From Rummeliibacillus pycnus (lineage in GTDB: Bacteria; Bacillota; Bacilli; Bacillales_A; Planococcaceae), in NCBI RefSeq assembly GCF_002884495.1, contig NZ_KZ614145.1, forward strand, positions 1,440,423-1,504,422: a stretch of DNA of 64,000 nucleotides, written 5' to 3'. Below, in pieces: positions 58,145 through 64,000 of this stretch. A program made the position numbers and the translations under genes. Each line of letters opens with the position of its first letter. Within the stretch, counting starts at the first letter, position 1. The notes under the pieces were generated by a model. The model was not told the DNA's origin and searched no databases. It worked only from the letters and a program-made list of their open reading frames with translations.

Positions 58145-58825
58145 TTATTGAGCATAATCTCCAGTGTAATTTACTAAAGAGCATGACTGTACACCTTTAA
58201 TATTATTTATTGTCTGTAAAAAGGCTGTATTATCGTCTACTATATTAATCTCAACTGTAACCTCTATAAAACCATTTCTAATTGATTTTGATTTTAATTT
58301 TGTATTGAGTTTTCTAAGTAAAACACGTAGCTCATCTGTTGCTTCATCCGTATGATGTATAATTAGTATATAGGCTTCATGCTTGGTTTTCTTTTTGGAT
58401 AACCATGCAAGTGCAAGCCCGAATGCAAGTGATCCGATAATCGATAATGGGTACATTTTAGCGCCTGTTGCAATACCAGCCGCTATCGCCCAAAACATAT
58501 AAACTATATCCAAAGGATCTTTTACGGCTGTTCTAAATCGTACAATACTTAATGCACCAACCATTCCCAGTGAAAGAATAATATTTGTACTAATTGTCAT
58601 AATGATTAATGTGGTAATCATTGTCATTAATACAAAAGAAACATTGTAATTGTAACTATAAACAACTCCACGAAAATATCTTTTGTAAATCCAATAGATA
58701 AACATCCCAATTCCAAAAGAACAAGCAAGACCTAGAAAGATATCAATATAAGATACCGTCCCAAATGATTCGAGATGGAGTACGCTTTTTTTTATTATAT
58801 CTTGAAAACCTAATGTATCATTCAT
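58145..58825 (-). CDS. DUF4956 membrane protein
   Basis: A 226-aa protein with about four membrane segments and a cytosolic C-terminal domain. The signature is SLGMVGALSIVRFRTAVKDP followed by DIVYMFWAIAAGIATGA, typical of DUF4956 proteins. Family function is unknown, but these genes commonly sit next to VTC-domain and CotH genes, as here. ATG 58825 follows GAGGAG by 7 bases; an in-frame upstream start lies before that site. It starts 27 bases after the VTC gene and ends the operon. Confidence 0.88.
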   Translation of the reverse strand: MNDTLGFQDIIKKSVLHLESFGTVSYIDIFLGLACSFGIGMFIYWIYKRYFRGVVYSYNYNVSFVLMTMITTLIIMTISTNIILSLGMVGALSIVRFRTAVKDPLDIVYMFWAIAAGIATGAKMYPLSIIGSLAFGLALAWLSKKKTKHEAYILIIHHTDEATDELRVLLRKLNTKLKSKSIRNGFIEVTVEINIVDDNTAFLQTINNIKGVQSCSLVNYTGDYAQ

Positions 58826-58852
58826 ATAAACTCTCCTCACGTGATACAATTC

Positions 58853-59566
58853 TTACTTAAAATTTTTAATCGTTAATTCTCTGCATAAAACATATTTTGA
58901 AATTGCCGAACGTACCAATCTTTCTGGTTGTACTATTTTACGAATCATATCAGGTAAAAAGTGATCAAATTTCACTTCTAATATAACTTGTTCAGGAAGC
59001 AATACTTCTTGTGAGATAATATTTTCATCAAATAGGTCAATCGTATTAAGACCAGCGGTGAGTTGTTTATCAAATGTAATACGCACATTTCCTGGCTCGT
59101 ACACATATGCTTCTCGAATATAATCAACAATGACAACTGGTCGAAAGTTTCTATAGCATAGCCCAGTTTTAAAATCCGTCAGTAATTTTTCTTCTTTATC
59201 TGCTAAAACATGGATATCACCATTTAATATTGAATCATATTCTGTTCTAGTAATAGAAGCTGATTCTTTGCATATAAAGTCCCCATGTTTACTTTTTCTC
59301 TCTAAAGTAATTTTCTTGTCACTTCCATTATAAATACGAATGCGATACTTTTCTCTATGAAAAATACCGTTATTTTTGTCATAAATAGAATGATTATGCA
59401 TACCATCAAAATATAAACTTGAGATATGATATCCTTCCTCATTCACTGAATTTTTATCAAGAGTTAACATTTCTGAAACTTTTTTTCTTAATGCGATATA
59501 TTCAATTTTATTTAGATAATATTTTAATTCATGTCTGAAAGTCTTCTGTTCCAAGTTCATATTCAT
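58853..59566 (-). CDS. VTC-domain protein (polyphosphate polymerase-like)
   Basis: A 237-aa tunnel-fold (TTM) protein of the VTC family: RHELKYYLNKIEYIALRKKV, REKYRIRIYNGSDKKITLERKSK with basic pairs that bind triphosphate, and VLEVKFD-like ILEVKFDHFLPDMIRKI. In yeast Vtc4 this domain makes polyphosphate from ATP; bacterial roles are not established. It overlaps the upstream gene's end within one base and so is cotranslated with pelG-cotH. Confidence 0.9.
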   Translation of the reverse strand: MNMNLEQKTFRHELKYYLNKIEYIALRKKVSEMLTLDKNSVNEEGYHISSLYFDGMHNHSIYDKNNGIFHREKYRIRIYNGSDKKITLERKSKHGDFICKESASITRTEYDSILNGDIHVLADKEEKLLTDFKTGLCYRNFRPVVIVDYIREAYVYEPGNVRITFDKQLTAGLNTIDLFDENIISQEVLLPEQVILEVKFDHFLPDMIRKIVQPERLVRSAISKYVLCRELTIKNFK

Positions 59567-59567
59567 A

Positions 59568-62500
59568 TTAGTCTACCTCGAAATCTCTTATTCCATTAAA
59601 TTCATTTCCCTCTTCATCTGCATACATATCAAATGAAGATTGTTCATGTCCTTTACTATCTCTAACCGTAACCTTCCAGAAATATTGACCACTTGAGGGT
59701 TTTTTCATCGAAAATTTGTTTTCACGAATATTTTTTTGGGTTGCTAAGACTTGTTTCATGTAGGGATCTTTTGCAACAGTTACGGTATAATACAAATCAT
59801 CCGCTTGTAAATCGAATGATACATCCCATGTGAATAGAAGCTTATTACCAGATTGTTCTACGTTGCTCATATAAAAAGGCTTAGGTTTTTGAAGGTCTTC
59901 ATAGTATCTTTTTTTCGCTCTTTCAGGAGTATCTTTTATTAGCTGTAATTCATTTTCATATTCAGAATTTACGATTGAAAGATAGTTCTTATCAGGACTT
60001 TTTAATATAAAAGGTTTGACTACATCATGATATTGATTCAGTTGAGTCGTAACTGTCTTTGCATTAATCTGCTTAGAAAGTTTTTCGATTTTATCCGTCA
60101 ATTTCTGAACATTTTCCTTAGAACGGAAATATCGATTTAACAGTATATTATTCCAAAAGTTACTAATTCCTGCTTGATAAGATCGTATGCTTTTTAGTTT
60201 TCTCTGTAACTCCCAACCTCCATCATAATCCCAAGGTAAGATAAACCATTTTTCTGAGTTTAATGGAGAATATAAGTAGAAGTTATTTGCATCAGTATCC
60301 ATATTGTCCATCAAAATATTCATAGCGGTCCATGTAAGCAAATTATCAATATCGAAGTGCTTCTCAATAACCTCTTCAATAGGAATTTTATAGTTATTTA
60401 CATCATCTAACATAGTAATTAACTTATCGTGTTCTTCTTTACCTTTTATCTCCAAAATTGATTCAAACTTCTTTTTACTATATTTTGGATCCGAATTTAT
60501 TCTAATTTGATCTGGATAACGTCCAAATTCAAAAAATGTTACTTTATATAAGTAACCATTTGGATCTAACAAATGAGTTCTTAAGAATTTTTTATTTGGC
60601 TGTTCAATTTGTGTATATAATCCATAATCTTCATACTTCTTTTGATTGCCATCCGTTAAATCTTTCACATATAAATGAACAAATTGGGTACGAAGGCTCG
60701 TTATGTTAGGGATCGTTTCCATTAAATCAAAACTTAATTTATTTCTTAGACGACTAGGATCATCAATATGCTTATTTAAATTAATCGTACGTTGATCCTG
60801 CCATAAGCCGGCACTATCGAATAATTTTATTTTGTATGACTTTTGTGCAGCATAACGTGATGAATTTCCTCGAATACTAATCTTCGCATTTGCCTCTTCG
60901 GCATTGTACCCAAATTTCCCATTCTTTGGTCCTGTGCCATCTTCAGTACCCTCTGCGAAAATAATATCTAACTTTGCTTTACTGTTACGATCTGTAATGC
61001 GATTAAGTCCATACCAATCTACTTTACTTGACTTATTTGGAACAATGGTAATATAAAGAGACTTTAGAGAGCTATCATCGTCACGCTCATATAATCTCTT
61101 ATCATCAACTAGCTTATCATTGTCAATTGTTTCTTCTACTACCTGTTTACTTGTTTCTTGTTGGTACTCTTTTTTCTTTTGATTTTCTGTTTTTTCACTT
61201 TCCCCGCATGCAGCTAAAATTAGAGTTGATATAGCAAGAATAGAAATCATTGTAATTGACTTTGAAAATGTAAATTTTCGTCTTTTCTTTTGACTCATGG
61301 TTGTTATAGGCTGCGAACAGAATGTGTAATAATCAATATTCTTAAGAACATATAATAATCGAGTAACAGAAATAATCAGCATTATAAATGACGAAAAAAA
61401 CATTCCTGTTCCATCAAAATTATTATTTATCGTACAAAAAGTTAATATAGCATTAAAAAAAACAAATCCTGCACTAATAGATAAAACGCCCTTTTGATCA
61501 TCAAAATACATAAGGACATGTAAAACAACAAACATAATAATAAAGAAAAAGTAAGCTAAACATAATAAGATAAACAAATCTAGCTGCTCCATTGTAAAGC
61601 CGATTTTTGGTAGATAAATGATACCTATTGCTATTGATAAAGCTGTAAATAGTAACTGTACTTCAACGAGAAAATCAATTTGCTGTAATAATACTTTTGT
61701 CATCTTCTGTTTTGCACTCTTCATACTTTCATAAGTGCCACCATTTATTACATTTTGATAGTAATTCAAAAATTTCTCATAAAATTTCGTTTCTACAATT
61801 ACTACAAACATAACAAGTGAGGGTAATACAGAAATATAAGCATAAAAGACAGGTACATCATAAAAAGGCATGAGCAAAAAATGATTATCTATTCTAAAAT
61901 GTCGATCAGAGAATAACCAATAGACTAAATTGTGAATATAGACACCAGAATAGACAAATACACCACTAAAAAATATAGATGGATATTTCTTTAAATAAAC
62001 TAAAAATGCAAAGTAATTTCTCTTTTCATCTCTTGGGAATACACTTTCAAAATGATACATGGACAGACCTACAATTACTCCAAATCCTACATCTATTCCT
62101 GCTAAAGCTATAATCGTTGCATTGATAGATAGAAACTGAAATAACACAAAACTTACGACTAAAGCCACCAATACACCAATAGCAAAACCTCGTACAATAC
62201 GTTTATAATCTTTTAATGCGGATAATAAAACGTTTTGAAGCCAAATAATGATTAACTCTATGAAAAACAGATACGAAACTAATTTATACCAAATACTTTC
62301 TTGGATATCGTATAAAAACAACACTGCAAGTAGTCCGCCAATTGGAAGAACAATTATAAGAACGCCATAAAAAGAGGAAATAATCTGTTCATATTTTTTT
62401 TGGAAAATTAAATCTGCTATAAATCTCGTAACAATCATTGAAAATCCAGATGTTAATATAATTGAAAAAACAAAGCAATAGACCATCGTCCCAACAAATA

Positions 62501-62681
62501 ATTCATTATCCAAATAGGAACTATTTTTTGCCTTCAACATCATTTGTTCACCAAACAGTAAAATAAGACATAAAATCATCGGTCCAATTGTCGTCATTGA
62601 AGAATAGACATATGCTTTGACATTTTGAACTATTCCATCTTCACGATATAACTTACGAAGTTCAAAACCTATTCCTGCCAT
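59568..62681 (-). CDS. pelG: PelG-CotH fusion protein
   Basis: A 1037-aa protein. Residues 1-455 are PelG (MAGIGFELRKLYREDG; about 12 membrane segments; DRHFRIDNHFLLMPFYDVPVF), the Wzx-like inner-membrane exporter of Pel. Residues 462-492 look like a lipoprotein signal: basic MSQKKRRKFTFSKS, hydrophobic core and lipobox LAAC with Cys492. From about 530 to 900 is a CotH-type kinase domain (AKISIRGNSSRYAAQKSYKI; DNMDTDANNFYLY; PWDYDGGW), and a beta domain follows (SGQYFWKVTVRDSKGHE). No ribosome binding site precedes Met462, so one continuous chain is expected. The CotH part would be extracytoplasmic. AGGAGG lies in the end of pelF, 8 bases before the ATG. Confidence 0.92.
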   Translation of the reverse strand: MAGIGFELRKLYREDGIVQNVKAYVYSSMTTIGPMILCLILLFGEQMMLKAKNSSYLDNELFVGTMVYCFVFSIILTSGFSMIVTRFIADLIFQKKYEQIISSFYGVLIIVLPIGGLLAVLFLYDIQESIWYKLVSYLFFIELIIIWLQNVLLSALKDYKRIVRGFAIGVLVALVVSFVLFQFLSINATIIALAGIDVGFGVIVGLSMYHFESVFPRDEKRNYFAFLVYLKKYPSIFFSGVFVYSGVYIHNLVYWLFSDRHFRIDNHFLLMPFYDVPVFYAYISVLPSLVMFVVIVETKFYEKFLNYYQNVINGGTYESMKSAKQKMTKVLLQQIDFLVEVQLLFTALSIAIGIIYLPKIGFTMEQLDLFILLCLAYFFFIIMFVVLHVLMYFDDQKGVLSISAGFVFFNAILTFCTINNNFDGTGMFFSSFIMLIISVTRLLYVLKNIDYYTFCSQPITTMSQKKRRKFTFSKSITMISILAISTLILAACGESEKTENQKKKEYQQETSKQVVEETIDNDKLVDDKRLYERDDDSSLKSLYITIVPNKSSKVDWYGLNRITDRNSKAKLDIIFAEGTEDGTGPKNGKFGYNAEEANAKISIRGNSSRYAAQKSYKIKLFDSAGLWQDQRTINLNKHIDDPSRLRNKLSFDLMETIPNITSLRTQFVHLYVKDLTDGNQKKYEDYGLYTQIEQPNKKFLRTHLLDPNGYLYKVTFFEFGRYPDQIRINSDPKYSKKKFESILEIKGKEEHDKLITMLDDVNNYKIPIEEVIEKHFDIDNLLTWTAMNILMDNMDTDANNFYLYSPLNSEKWFILPWDYDGGWELQRKLKSIRSYQAGISNFWNNILLNRYFRSKENVQKLTDKIEKLSKQINAKTVTTQLNQYHDVVKPFILKSPDKNYLSIVNSEYENELQLIKDTPERAKKRYYEDLQKPKPFYMSNVEQSGNKLLFTWDVSFDLQADDLYYTVTVAKDPYMKQVLATQKNIRENKFSMKKPSSGQYFWKVTVRDSKGHEQSSFDMYADEEGNEFNGIRDFEVD

Positions 62682-62683
62682 TC

Positions 62684-64000
62684 TTACTCACCTCCTAACA
62701 ATTGATACAATTGACGATAGCTTGAAATAAATTCATTCCGCTTATAATTAACTTTTACTCTTTCAAAACCACTTTGACCAAATTGTTCTCTCAGTTTTTG
62801 ATCTTTACAAAGCTTGAGGATATTATTTGCTATTTCTTCATAGTGCATAACAGGAGTGATAAAACCTGCTTGACCATACCGATCATCTGGTCCCCCCATA
62901 AGAAGCTCTTTACATCCGCCAACATTTGTACAAACAAATGGCTTTGCGCAAGCTAAACCTTCCAATATCGCTAATGGTTGTCCTTCACTAATACTTGTTA
63001 AAAGGAAAAAATCTATTCTACCTAAATAATCTTTTATTTGAACCATGCCTGTAAAAATAATATGCTTGATACCCATTTCATCTACCATTCTCAAACATTC
63101 GTTATAATATGTAGGATCTTCTTCAACGGGCCCCATTATATAGAGTTCAACATTTGGAATCTCTTTTTCTACTAATGCAAAACTTTGAATCATTGTTTTA
63201 ATATCTTTAATCGGTACAACACGTACAATAGCACCAATTCGAATAACTCCATCATCAGGTATTGACTTAAGATCTTGATAATCAGTAATTTCTACACCAT
63301 TCGGAATAATTCGAATCTTTTCCTCAGGGCATCCTAATTCCACCTCTATCTCCTTATTTCGATTGAATAATGTGATAACTTGATCAGCTGCAGTATAAAT
63401 AGAGCCAGAAAGTGTATAAAAATAATTGATCCATAAATCTTTAAAATAACCCTTTACCCAATCCGCTTTAATAATTTCCTCTTCTCTCTCTCGAGAATAA
63501 ATACCGTGTTCGGTTAACAATAGCGGCTTATTATGCAAATGTTTTGCTAATGCTCCAATCACACCAGCATACCCTGTAGAAACAGCGTGATATATGTCTG
63601 CTTGCGGTATTTCATGCCGGATCGTCGACAACAGTGGTAATAACATGGAACTGATTGTCCAAAATAGCTCTGTAAACGGTACTTGTGAGTATTCATTTTT
63701 CCCCAAATGCTCTACTAGATCAAAGTAATCCTTGCTGGTTAAAAATTCTCCAACACTTGTAAACTCCTTACTTCGAATCAAGTCAAATAAATCATTCCAA
63801 TTGACAATGTGATTACTACTTAATAGTGATATTAAACTTTCTTTTTGTTGTGAAGAAAGATTGTACCTCTTTCCCCACTTCTTTTTTTCAAACAGATATT
63901 CATCTAAAAATATCTCTTTAATTTCTACTAAATTAGATGGTAAATCATATTTAAATTTTCCTTTTTGTTTTGTCTCCGCTCCTATGGCATAAATAATAAA
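62684..64000 (-). CDS. pelF: Pel polysaccharide glycosyltransferase PelF (5' end outside window)
   Basis: The minus-strand frame is open from the window edge: FIIYAIGAETKQKGKFKYDL, then continues through MIRSKEFTSVGEF to the stop at 62684 (438 codons visible). It is a GT-B/GT4 enzyme: HAVSTGYAGVIGALAKH, LLTEHGIYSREREEEI, IIPNGVEI, and the nucleotide-sugar motif SEGQPLAILEGLACAKPFV. PelF uses UDP-GalNAc/GlcNAc to build Pel (family knowledge). An internal start at 63781 is not the real one. pelG follows directly. Confidence 0.92.
   Translation of the reverse strand, partial: FIIYAIGAETKQKGKFKYDLPSNLVEIKEIFLDEYLFEKKKWGKRYNLSSQQKESLISLLSSNHIVNWNDLFDLIRSKEFTSVGEFLTSKDYFDLVEHLGKNEYSQVPFTELFWTISSMLLPLLSTIRHEIPQADIYHAVSTGYAGVIGALAKHLHNKPLLLTEHGIYSREREEEIIKADWVKGYFKDLWINYFYTLSGSIYTAADQVITLFNRNKEIEVELGCPEEKIRIIPNGVEITDYQDLKSIPDDGVIRIGAIVRVVPIKDIKTMIQSFALVEKEIPNVELYIMGPVEEDPTYYNECLRMVDEMGIKHIIFTGMVQIKDYLGRIDFFLLTSISEGQPLAILEGLACAKPFVCTNVGGCKELLMGGPDDRYGQAGFITPVMHYEEIANNILKLCKDQKLREQFGQSGFERVKVNYKRNEFISSYRQLYQLLGGE

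Follow-up and report, generated by a model that had tools for sequence, protein, structure and literature searches.

Pel operons with CotH, VTC and DUF4956 genes

Gram-positive pelDEADAFG operons in which cotH, a polyphosphate polymerase gene and a DUF4956 gene are contiguous with the pel genes have been described from streptococci as well as clostridia, and in a variant form from bifidobacteria (Whitfield et al. 2020, PMC7112168). For Streptococcus intermedius, which carries the accessory genes as SIR_1592-1594, PMC12345266 records less Pel in a cotH mutant and more Pel in a DUF4956 mutant, and does not report an effect for the polyphosphate-polymerase mutant. The initial annotation of the locus studied here had held that classical Pel operons do not include these three genes, which overlooks PMC7112168; their presence with Gram-positive pel operons has been in print since 2020. 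A fusion of cotH to pelG was not found reported in our literature search, which covered sources other than supplementary figures such as those of PMC7112168, where a drawing of it may exist.

The window analyzed here, a stretch of 64,000 nucleotides from Rummeliibacillus pycnus, is part of a single 3.85-Mb contig and contains four genes of a pel operon (Table 1). As initially annotated, pelF, pelG-cotH, the VTC-domain gene and the DUF4956 gene are closely packed; the gaps are 2, 1 and 27 bases, and Pfam searches bore out the assigned domain identities (PF16933, PF08757, PF09359 and, for DUF4956, PF16316, all above cut-offs). The full pelF gene (L004:9107-10570) extends beyond the window, where the operon is completed upstream by a deacetylase-type pelA (L004:10524-12371; PF09960 and PF10096 above cut-offs, PF01522 below cut-off only), a 305-aa gene at the pelE position that gave zero matches in Pfam and NCBIfam searches, and an epimerase-type pelD (epimerase PF01370 at 3-225, GAF-domain PF13492 at 489-613). 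Judged by their domains, PelF, PelG, PelA and PelD all conform to the predicted Gram-positive Pel type. With the 305-aa gene as candidate pelE, the operon shares its gene set, epimerase-type PelD and deacetylase-type PelA with the published pelDEADAFG operons. In the consulted portions of the literature, however, cotH is treated as a gene of its own, whereas PelG and CotH of the window form one chain with an internal lipobox, and the frame after the DUF4956 gene encodes a GNAT acetyltransferase instead of the DUF4832 protein of the published system.

Table 1 Features of the operon within the window
Feature	Position	Strand	Basis
pelF (GT4 glycosyltransferase), in-window part	62684..64000	-	NCBIfam NF038011 PelF above cut-off; start outside window
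pelG-cotH, one open frame, 1037 aa	59568..62681 (stop included)	-	ATG, Shine-Dalgarno AGGAGG
PelG part, residues 1-454	61320..62681	-	Pfam PF16933 (E 2.4e-124), above cut-off
Predicted internal lipoprotein signal, residues 462-491	61209..61298	-	K/R-rich n-region, 17-residue uncharged stretch ending LAA
Cys492 codon, lipobox cysteine, predicted lipidation/cleavage site	61206..61208	-	Invariant in 35/35 fused proteins
CotH kinase-like domain, residues 601-917	59931..60881	-	PF08757 (E 7.6e-66), above cut-off
C-terminal beta domain, ~residues 935-1037	59571..59879	-	Strands in AlphaFold2 model
VTC-domain gene (putative polyphosphate polymerase), 237 aa	58853..59566	-	PF09359 (1.7e-37), above cut-off
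DUF4956 gene, 226 aa, counted from its ATG (the ORF list runs the frame further, to TTG at 58849)	58145..58825	-	PF16316 (1.2e-12), above cut-off

PelG and CotH in a single open frame

The 1037-aa PelG-CotH chain proposed initially was upheld as one frame. Because the same single frame is kept in 18/261 genomes of the family, an assembly error or chance frame was rejected. In the AlphaFold2 model, the PelG part comprises, by our count, 12 transmembrane helices in a MOP/MATE-like fold, for which Foldseek returned MATE, MurJ and WzxE structures, while residues 451-520 are not resolved (pLDDT <50). The CotH domain matches B. cereus CotH (5jd9) by sequence and, in Foldseek, by fold. Its residues E693, D795, N800 and D818 are invariant across all 35 fused proteins, which rules out that catalytic residues are missing throughout the family, a case that the initial annotation had named as refuting its reading, and suggests an intact active site. 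By spacing and alignment to 5jd9, D795/D818 correspond to D228/D251, the catalytic Asp pair given for B. subtilis CotH in PMC7821199. The CotH spore-coat kinases of B. subtilis and B. cereus (5jd9/5jda) thus share the fold and the 23-residue Asp spacing; unlike them, the CotH of the window is predicted to be exported, is preceded by PelG and a signal part, carries a C-terminal beta domain and sits in a polysaccharide operon. This beta domain is probably FN3-like, and the streptococcal homologue has been described with FN3 (PMC12345266).

Altogether, 35 distinct fused PelG-CotH proteins were collected, with named carriers among Paenibacillus, Psychrobacillus, Solibacillus, Rummeliibacillus and Brevibacillus records. 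Duplicate rows were dropped (L046, L047, L048, L049 and L051, repeating L006, L009, L010, L016 and L008), and the tree leaves out L112 with its truncated CotH. In the PelG tree, the 34 Bacilli fusions form one clade (100/100) and the Lachnospiraceae fusion L067 stands alone; fusion of CotH to PelG needs two origins, one for each. A phylum sample, scored with two candidates per genome (three in the family scan), contained PelG by profile in 12/398 genomes and the fusion in the window's own genome only. PelG occurred without detectable CotH at 19 of the listed loci. Of 551 stretches confirmed in the contig-wide scan, the best 80 were taken, and the counts from it are not frequencies.

According to the initial annotation, a stop codon or ribosome-binding site between the two parts in relatives would point to an assembly error; such split relatives do exist, but they are located on other branches. 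One of them, L125, combines an in-frame stop, AGGAGG and a CotH with a lipoprotein signal, an arrangement that likely represents the earlier state before fusion. In Fusobacteriota, four PelGs carry a repeat region unrelated to CotH, placed behind an internal lipobox, and these chains represent a third, separate origin. Three of the Fusobacteriota fusions gave zero NCBIfam matches.

A conserved lipobox at the junction

The lipobox LAAC with Cys492 is present at the PelG/CotH junction, as first noted. Within the 34-row Bacilli clade, Cys492 shows zero changes and is the sole unchanged column of the 67-residue linker (459-525), the other 66 columns averaging 16.5 changes each with none at 0; position -1 is limited to A/G/S and position -3 to L/M/I/T. 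A relaxed lipobox is found in 35/35 fused proteins and the pattern [LVI][ASTVI][GAS]C in 29/35. All 35 have a positive n-region, and the uncharged stretch before the Cys has a median length of 17 residues (range 11-22). NCBIfam lipoprotein models produced four weak matches within residues 473-523 (E 1.2e-4 to 0.015, all sub-cut-off), and Lgt and Lsp genes are both present in the genome. The chain has the positive n-region, hydrophobic stretch and lipobox Cys of a lipoprotein, but its signal is internal, behind the PelG domain, rather than at the N-terminus, and for this reason we liken it to a lipoprotein precursor and do not class it as one.

The strictly kept lipobox predicts an Lgt/Lsp cut at the junction. 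From the sequence, we consider it fairly probable that PelG-CotH is a membrane polyprotein, processed by Lgt and Lsp into PelG and a membrane-anchored CotH, and that CotH there acts as a kinase. In this proposal, of which cleavage, localization, kinase activity and substrate are all predictions, the ribosome would make one chain out of a Pel exporter with 12 helices and a CotH destined for the surface, and the hydrophobic segment after PelG (~residues 475-491) would insert into the membrane in the manner of a lipoprotein signal. Lgt would lipidate Cys492 and Lsp would cut just before it, so that the spent signal stays on PelG as an extra helix and CotH is left as a lipoprotein on the outer face beside the exporter, delivered 1:1. 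Its substrate there would most likely be a surface protein or the glycan as it emerges, and their phosphorylation would tune Pel output or aggregation. The initial annotation correctly called CotH to the exported side but regarded the fusion as tying the kinase to the exporter; the kept lipobox instead predicts a CotH that is lipid-anchored beside PelG.

A junction that remains uncut, with CotH hung permanently from PelG by a 13th transmembrane helix, lipidated or plain, and working at the exporter exit only, would agree with a single chain that in most members has no independent start, and with the 11-22 uncharged residues at the junction. Many Cys-less split CotHs also appear to be plain signal-anchored, so that membrane tethering alone would be enough in many species. 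A plain helix, however, would not need an invariant Cys or the restricted residues at -1 and -3 amid freely varying columns. Together with the presence of Lgt and Lsp and with second CotH copies that are separate frames, each with its own lipobox (G160 and G162), this makes such a tether unlikely.

Among split cotH genes, 20/43 show the lipobox pattern, a count obtained with position limits on the pattern, while L072, L077 and L115 are also lipobox-like by eye. As the nearest split cotH genes have one, the lipobox of the fusion probably came down from a lipoprotein CotH. With two CotH fusion events only, the link between fusion and lipobox (35/35 versus 20/43) has no significance when shared descent is taken into account; Fisher tests on these counts and on ribosome sites ignore ancestry and were set aside as evidence.

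Returning to the predicted Lgt/Lsp cut, a shallow literature search yielded no precedent for Lsp cleavage after a polytopic domain or for an internal-lipobox polyprotein. To our knowledge, few bacterial translation products combine a membrane protein with a surface protein. In Bradyrhizobium, the cytochrome b/c1 precursor FbcH unites an exported protein with a polytopic membrane protein in one chain with an internal signal; FbcH is a signal-peptidase-I case, whereas the signal of PelG-CotH is of the lipoprotein (Lsp) type. Should signal peptidase II cut the junction, PelG-CotH would be a polyprotein that arises naturally within the lipoprotein pathway, and would offer a means of fixing in what ratio, and where, an exporter is accompanied by its surface partner. 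The fusion also marks CotH as a PelG partner, making an extracellular role of CotH in Pel biofilms directly testable. More broadly, we lean slightly toward PelG being a recurrent platform for self-delivering lipoproteins, acquired at least three times (Bacilli, Lachnospiraceae and Fusobacteriota) with two unrelated cargos, in which an Lsp-cut lipobox would place a surface protein beside each exporter.

Translation starts in the linker

A free CotH lipoprotein could also arise if ribosomes entered anew within the linker, the fusion then being run-through only. Candidate sites exist in three of the 35 fused genes (L015, L067 and L076), where an in-frame start pairs at -5 kcal/mol or better, and a possible internal ribosome site was seen in Fusobacteriota L163, one of four repeat-type fusions. 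The remaining 32/35 have no linker site of this strength: 14 are without an in-frame ATG, GTG or TTG at least 12 aa before the Cys, and 18 have an in-frame start codon with weak ribosome-site pairing only. Moreover, the three strong sites are within chance given a background of 119/918 codons inside the CotH body, and in L015 and L076 the start would lie 14 aa before the Cys, so that a charged n-region would be absent. Split cotH genes had a site of that strength in 43/43, an upper figure because the best of all in-frame starts before the domain was taken, which favors split genes; it leaves out L114, whose cotH start is not clear, and for L075 and L086 the site taken falls behind the signal segment. 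At the sequence level, most fused members have lost an independent start for CotH, and internal initiation is very improbable as its source.

VTC and DUF4956 as a putative phosphate module

The VTC tunnel residues, including those taken to be catalytic in VTC4, are invariant in 40/40 rows. A profile search of solved structures matched five sequences, all of them VTC4, while a single-sequence search gave zero matches. By domain and tunnel residues, the gene fits a putative VTC polyphosphate polymerase. It shares the tunnel domain with its conserved basic residues with yeast VTC4 (3g3q and others) but, unlike the latter, encodes a stand-alone 237-aa protein, for which the neighboring DUF4956 protein would provide the membrane part. 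For DUF4956, zero solved structures were found by sequence search. An AlphaFold2 model of moderate quality (pLDDT 74.5) comprises membrane helices and a C-terminal ACT-like domain; Foldseek ranked NikR first with poor rmsd, followed at ranks 2-4 by the ACT domain 3ibw/2ko1, and fold matches outside the ACT-like half were not used because the model is only moderate.

Across the phylum sample, the 64/398 genomes that have VTC are also the ones that have DUF4956, mostly without PelG, and 72/74 DUF4956 matches have VTC no more than 1.5 kb away. The co-occurrence suggests a bacterial VTC system made of two parts; a literature search for the two as a pair found none. CotH lies within 4 kb of 40/72 VTC-DUF4956 pairs, in line with the initial view that the three genes group elsewhere.

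These co-occurrences and the invariant tunnel argue for a putative phosphate module recruited to Pel, in which polyphosphate made by VTC would cross the membrane through DUF4956 and, at the surface, either act as the donor for CotH or itself bind cationic Pel. We also counted in its favor that ATP is scarce in the extracellular space. The initial annotation had likewise suggested a phosphate-based modification of Pel, or phosphorylation of an exported protein or glycan fed by polyphosphate, as candidate roles. The S. intermedius mutants, with Pel lowered in cotH, raised in DUF4956 and no change reported for the polymerase deletion in PMC12345266, are unlike the prediction of a polyphosphate-fed CotH, and we hold this reading as tentative and rather doubtful. 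It is compatible with either a cut or an uncut PelG-CotH junction. The order CotH-VTC-DUF4956 on one strand is found in 73/79 collected PelG+CotH loci.

Organization of the pel operon

The operon at 58145-64000 (minus strand) consists of pelF, one open frame of 1037 codons, a VTC gene for a putative polyphosphate polymerase and a gene for the membrane protein DUF4956, with gaps of 2, 1 and 27 bases. This agrees with the initial annotation, which had described tightly packed genes and a single 1037-aa PelG-CotH chain. In the domain search that it had proposed, Pfam recovered PelG and CotH in the long frame, with the VTC and DUF4956 products likewise above cut-offs. A single 3.85-Mb contig contains the whole window. 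The remainder of the operon lies beyond the edge: the start of pelF, pelA of the deacetylase type, a gene at the place of pelE, and pelD, encoding N-terminal epimerase and GAF domains. The first frame after DUF4956 encodes a GNAT acetyltransferase. Inspected by eye, PelD (L004:13259-15442, on the stretch covering the upstream part) has an epimerase YxxxK motif that looks intact, and RETD as a possible c-di-GMP site. Two more CotH genes elsewhere in this genome (G000:C1:604233-607091) are probably of the spore-coat type.

Pfam domains of the PelG-CotH protein
Feature	Position	Strand	Source
PelG	residues 1-454 of 1037-codon frame	minus	Pfam
CotH	residues 601-917 of 1037-codon frame	minus	Pfam

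The initial annotation had held that Pel operons do not include CotH, VTC and DUF4956. Their association with Pel is not new, because PMC7112168 and PMC12345266 describe these genes. As far as the available text of PMC7112168 states, cotH, polyphosphate polymerase, DUF4956 and DUF4832 genes directly adjoin pelDEADAFG in both streptococci and clostridia, occur as a variant set in bifidobacteria and correlate with epimerase-type PelD. According to the corresponding parts of PMC12345266, Streptococcus intermedius deletion mutants of these accessory genes still make Pel, with less in the cotH mutant and more in the DUF4956 mutant; both show lower aggregation in sputum medium, and no effect was reported for the polymerase mutant. 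The available portions of both papers contain no mention of a PelG-CotH fusion, which, as far as literature searches reach, is new. Judged by the genes listed in the accessible part of PMC11677781 (CotH, polyphosphate polymerases, glycosyltransferase, polysaccharide deacetylase), Clostridium perfringens NELoc-2 looks like a pel-type locus.

Distribution and origins of the fusion

The PelG-CotH fusion is real and old. Surveying relatives, another step suggested initially, we found it as one open frame in 18 of 261 genomes of the window's family (five genera, 54-100% identity); five further genomes (G013, G014, G015, G245 and G251) carry adjacent separate pelG and cotH genes, and one (G109) has PelG with no detected CotH. 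A wider scan of 84,980 species genomes, from which the best 80 of 551 confirmed stretches (79 loci) were taken, added at least 17 distinct fused proteins after five repeats were dropped. Among the matches listed, these came from Brevibacillus invocatus, Paenibacillus species, a Paenibacillaceae MAG and one Lachnospiraceae MAG. Profiles detected PelG in 12 of 398 evenly sampled phylum genomes, and only the window's own genome carries it fused. After removal of repeats, 73 of 79 PelG+CotH loci have CotH, VTC and DUF4956 in this order on one strand; VTC and/or DUF4956 were not found in the examined DNA of L013, L014, L053, L089, L112 and L114.

A PelG tree of 78 rows required two changes of fused state, with the Lachnospiraceae fusion placed apart from the Bacilli, among split relatives. 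Relatives with a stop codon or ribosome site between the two parts had been named initially as a sign of assembly error. Such split relatives exist, for example L125, where AGGAGG and an ATG in frame with pelG follow the pelG stop and open a gene for a lipoprotein CotH, but the 34 Bacilli fusions, each in one frame, form their own clade (100/100). The L125 arrangement likely represents an earlier state of the fusion.

In the split-gene ribosome-site test, which included 43 of 44 split loci, the in-frame start with the best pairing upstream of the cotH domain reaches -5 kcal/mol or better in 43/43 (an upper figure). Of the 35 fused genes, 14 lack any in-frame start-type codon 12 or more residues ahead of the Cys, 18 have only weaker ribosome sites in the linker and three (L015, L067 and L076) have a stronger internal site. 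Within the CotH body, the background is 119 stronger sites among 918 start-type codons. Judging from these sequences, CotH in fused genes appears mostly to be no longer translated independently. In two genomes (G160 and G162; loci L035 and L037), the fused gene is followed by another CotH frame that has a lipobox of its own; in G160, part of the fused linker is still recognizable in this second frame. Second CotH genes beside the Pel-associated one also occur in L080, L081, L094, L098 and G365.

A predicted lipoprotein signal at the junction

The PelG-CotH junction is a predicted lipoprotein signal, as first proposed from its lipobox at Cys492. The cysteine is present in all 35 aligned fused proteins, where no other position between Y451 and Y543 is invariant. 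In the 34-row clade it underwent 0 changes along the tree, while the other 66 columns of 459-525 averaged 16.5 changes, none being unchanged. Within this clade, position -1 is restricted to A, G or S and position -3 to L, M, I or T. A relaxed lipobox is found in 35/35 fused proteins and a stricter one in 29/35; all have an uncharged stretch (11-22 residues, median 17), with a net charge of +2 to +9 in the 15 residues preceding the hydrophobic stretch. Four NCBIfam lipoprotein models match the junction weakly, below their cut-offs, and the window's genome encodes both Lsp and Lgt.

In a structure model, PelG has twelve long helices (manual count) and resembles MATE, MurJ and WzxE transporters; linker 451-520 is not resolved. 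Since the helix number is even, the K/R-rich linker would lie on the inner side, and the next hydrophobic segment would therefore export CotH. The conserved lipobox predicts lipidation and cleavage by Lgt and Lsp at the junction. Alternatively, the segment might stay as a permanent 13th helix, which leaves the conserved Cys unexplained. The conserved internal lipobox, favoring processing, is the most valuable point, making a curious fusion a testable polyprotein model.

Loss of CotH catalytic residues throughout the family, which would have spoken against the initial reading, was not seen: E693, D795, N800 and D818 are kept in 35/35 fused proteins. A glycan, as a possible acceptor for the putative kinase activity of CotH, has a precedent in the Fam20 kinases (Fam20B), distantly related to CotH. 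By spacing and alignment to 5jd9, D795/D818 match D228/D251, given in the available text of PMC7821199 as the catalytic pair of Bacillus subtilis CotH.

VTC and DUF4956 as a module

The window's VTC matches the VTC4 catalytic domain, and R11, K15, R75, R77, K91, R151, E197, K199 and K224, which we take to correspond to VTC4's catalytic residues, are kept in 40/40 rows. Of 398 phylum genomes, the same 64 contain both VTC and DUF4956 (two DUF4956 genomes only below the Pfam cut-off), with 72 of 74 DUF4956 and 72 of 78 VTC matches at most 1.5 kb apart; the two likely form an obligate two-gene module. CotH lies within 4 kb of 40 of the 72 pairs, bearing out the initial statement that the three cluster in bacteria. 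Three pairs have PelG at most 6 kb away; 34 genomes with no PelG above cut-off hold 36 triads with CotH.

We inspected 20 of the 72 neighborhoods, mostly selected for nearby CotH. A neighbor belongs to the CotH similarity cluster in 18 (five Pfam-confirmed); in two loci of the window's class (L160 and L161, family code f2) another lipoprotein replaces CotH, identified in L160, the one scanned, as a Cthe_2159 carbohydrate-binding protein. A histidine kinase cluster is present in 11 of the 20 and a response regulator cluster in 12 (Pfam-confirmed in two cases each). The available text of PMC12345266 states that the CotH/VTC/DUF4956 arrangement does not occur elsewhere than at the Pel locus. This may hold for gene order, not for grouping, because the 18 loci run VTC-DUF4956-CotH (for L154, from profile-match positions), unlike the CotH-VTC-DUF4956 of pel operons.

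A parallel in Fusobacteriota

In Propionigenium maris (L109), two Cetobacterium somerae records and Fusobacterium vincentii, PelG extends past an internal lipobox, LSGC or LGGC, into a region of GFN/GYN repeats that is unrelated to CotH. L109 follows pelF in a pel-like operon, and its tail gave no Pfam match. The four PelGs group in a single clade (SH-aLRT 100), and a quick tree of 109 rows needed three changes of fused state. By sequence and tree, the repeat-type fusion is an apparent independent parallel to PelG-CotH. An internal lipobox is present in 39/39 fused PelGs collected; a possible internal start was seen in one of the four Fusobacteriota fusions (L163). The repeat region varies in length among L109, L162, L163 and L164, and the Cetobacterium fusion is annotated simply as PelG. 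PelG of Ca. Mcinerneyibacterium (L102) ends in a tail of 89 residues that contains one more hydrophobic segment but not the lipobox Cys.
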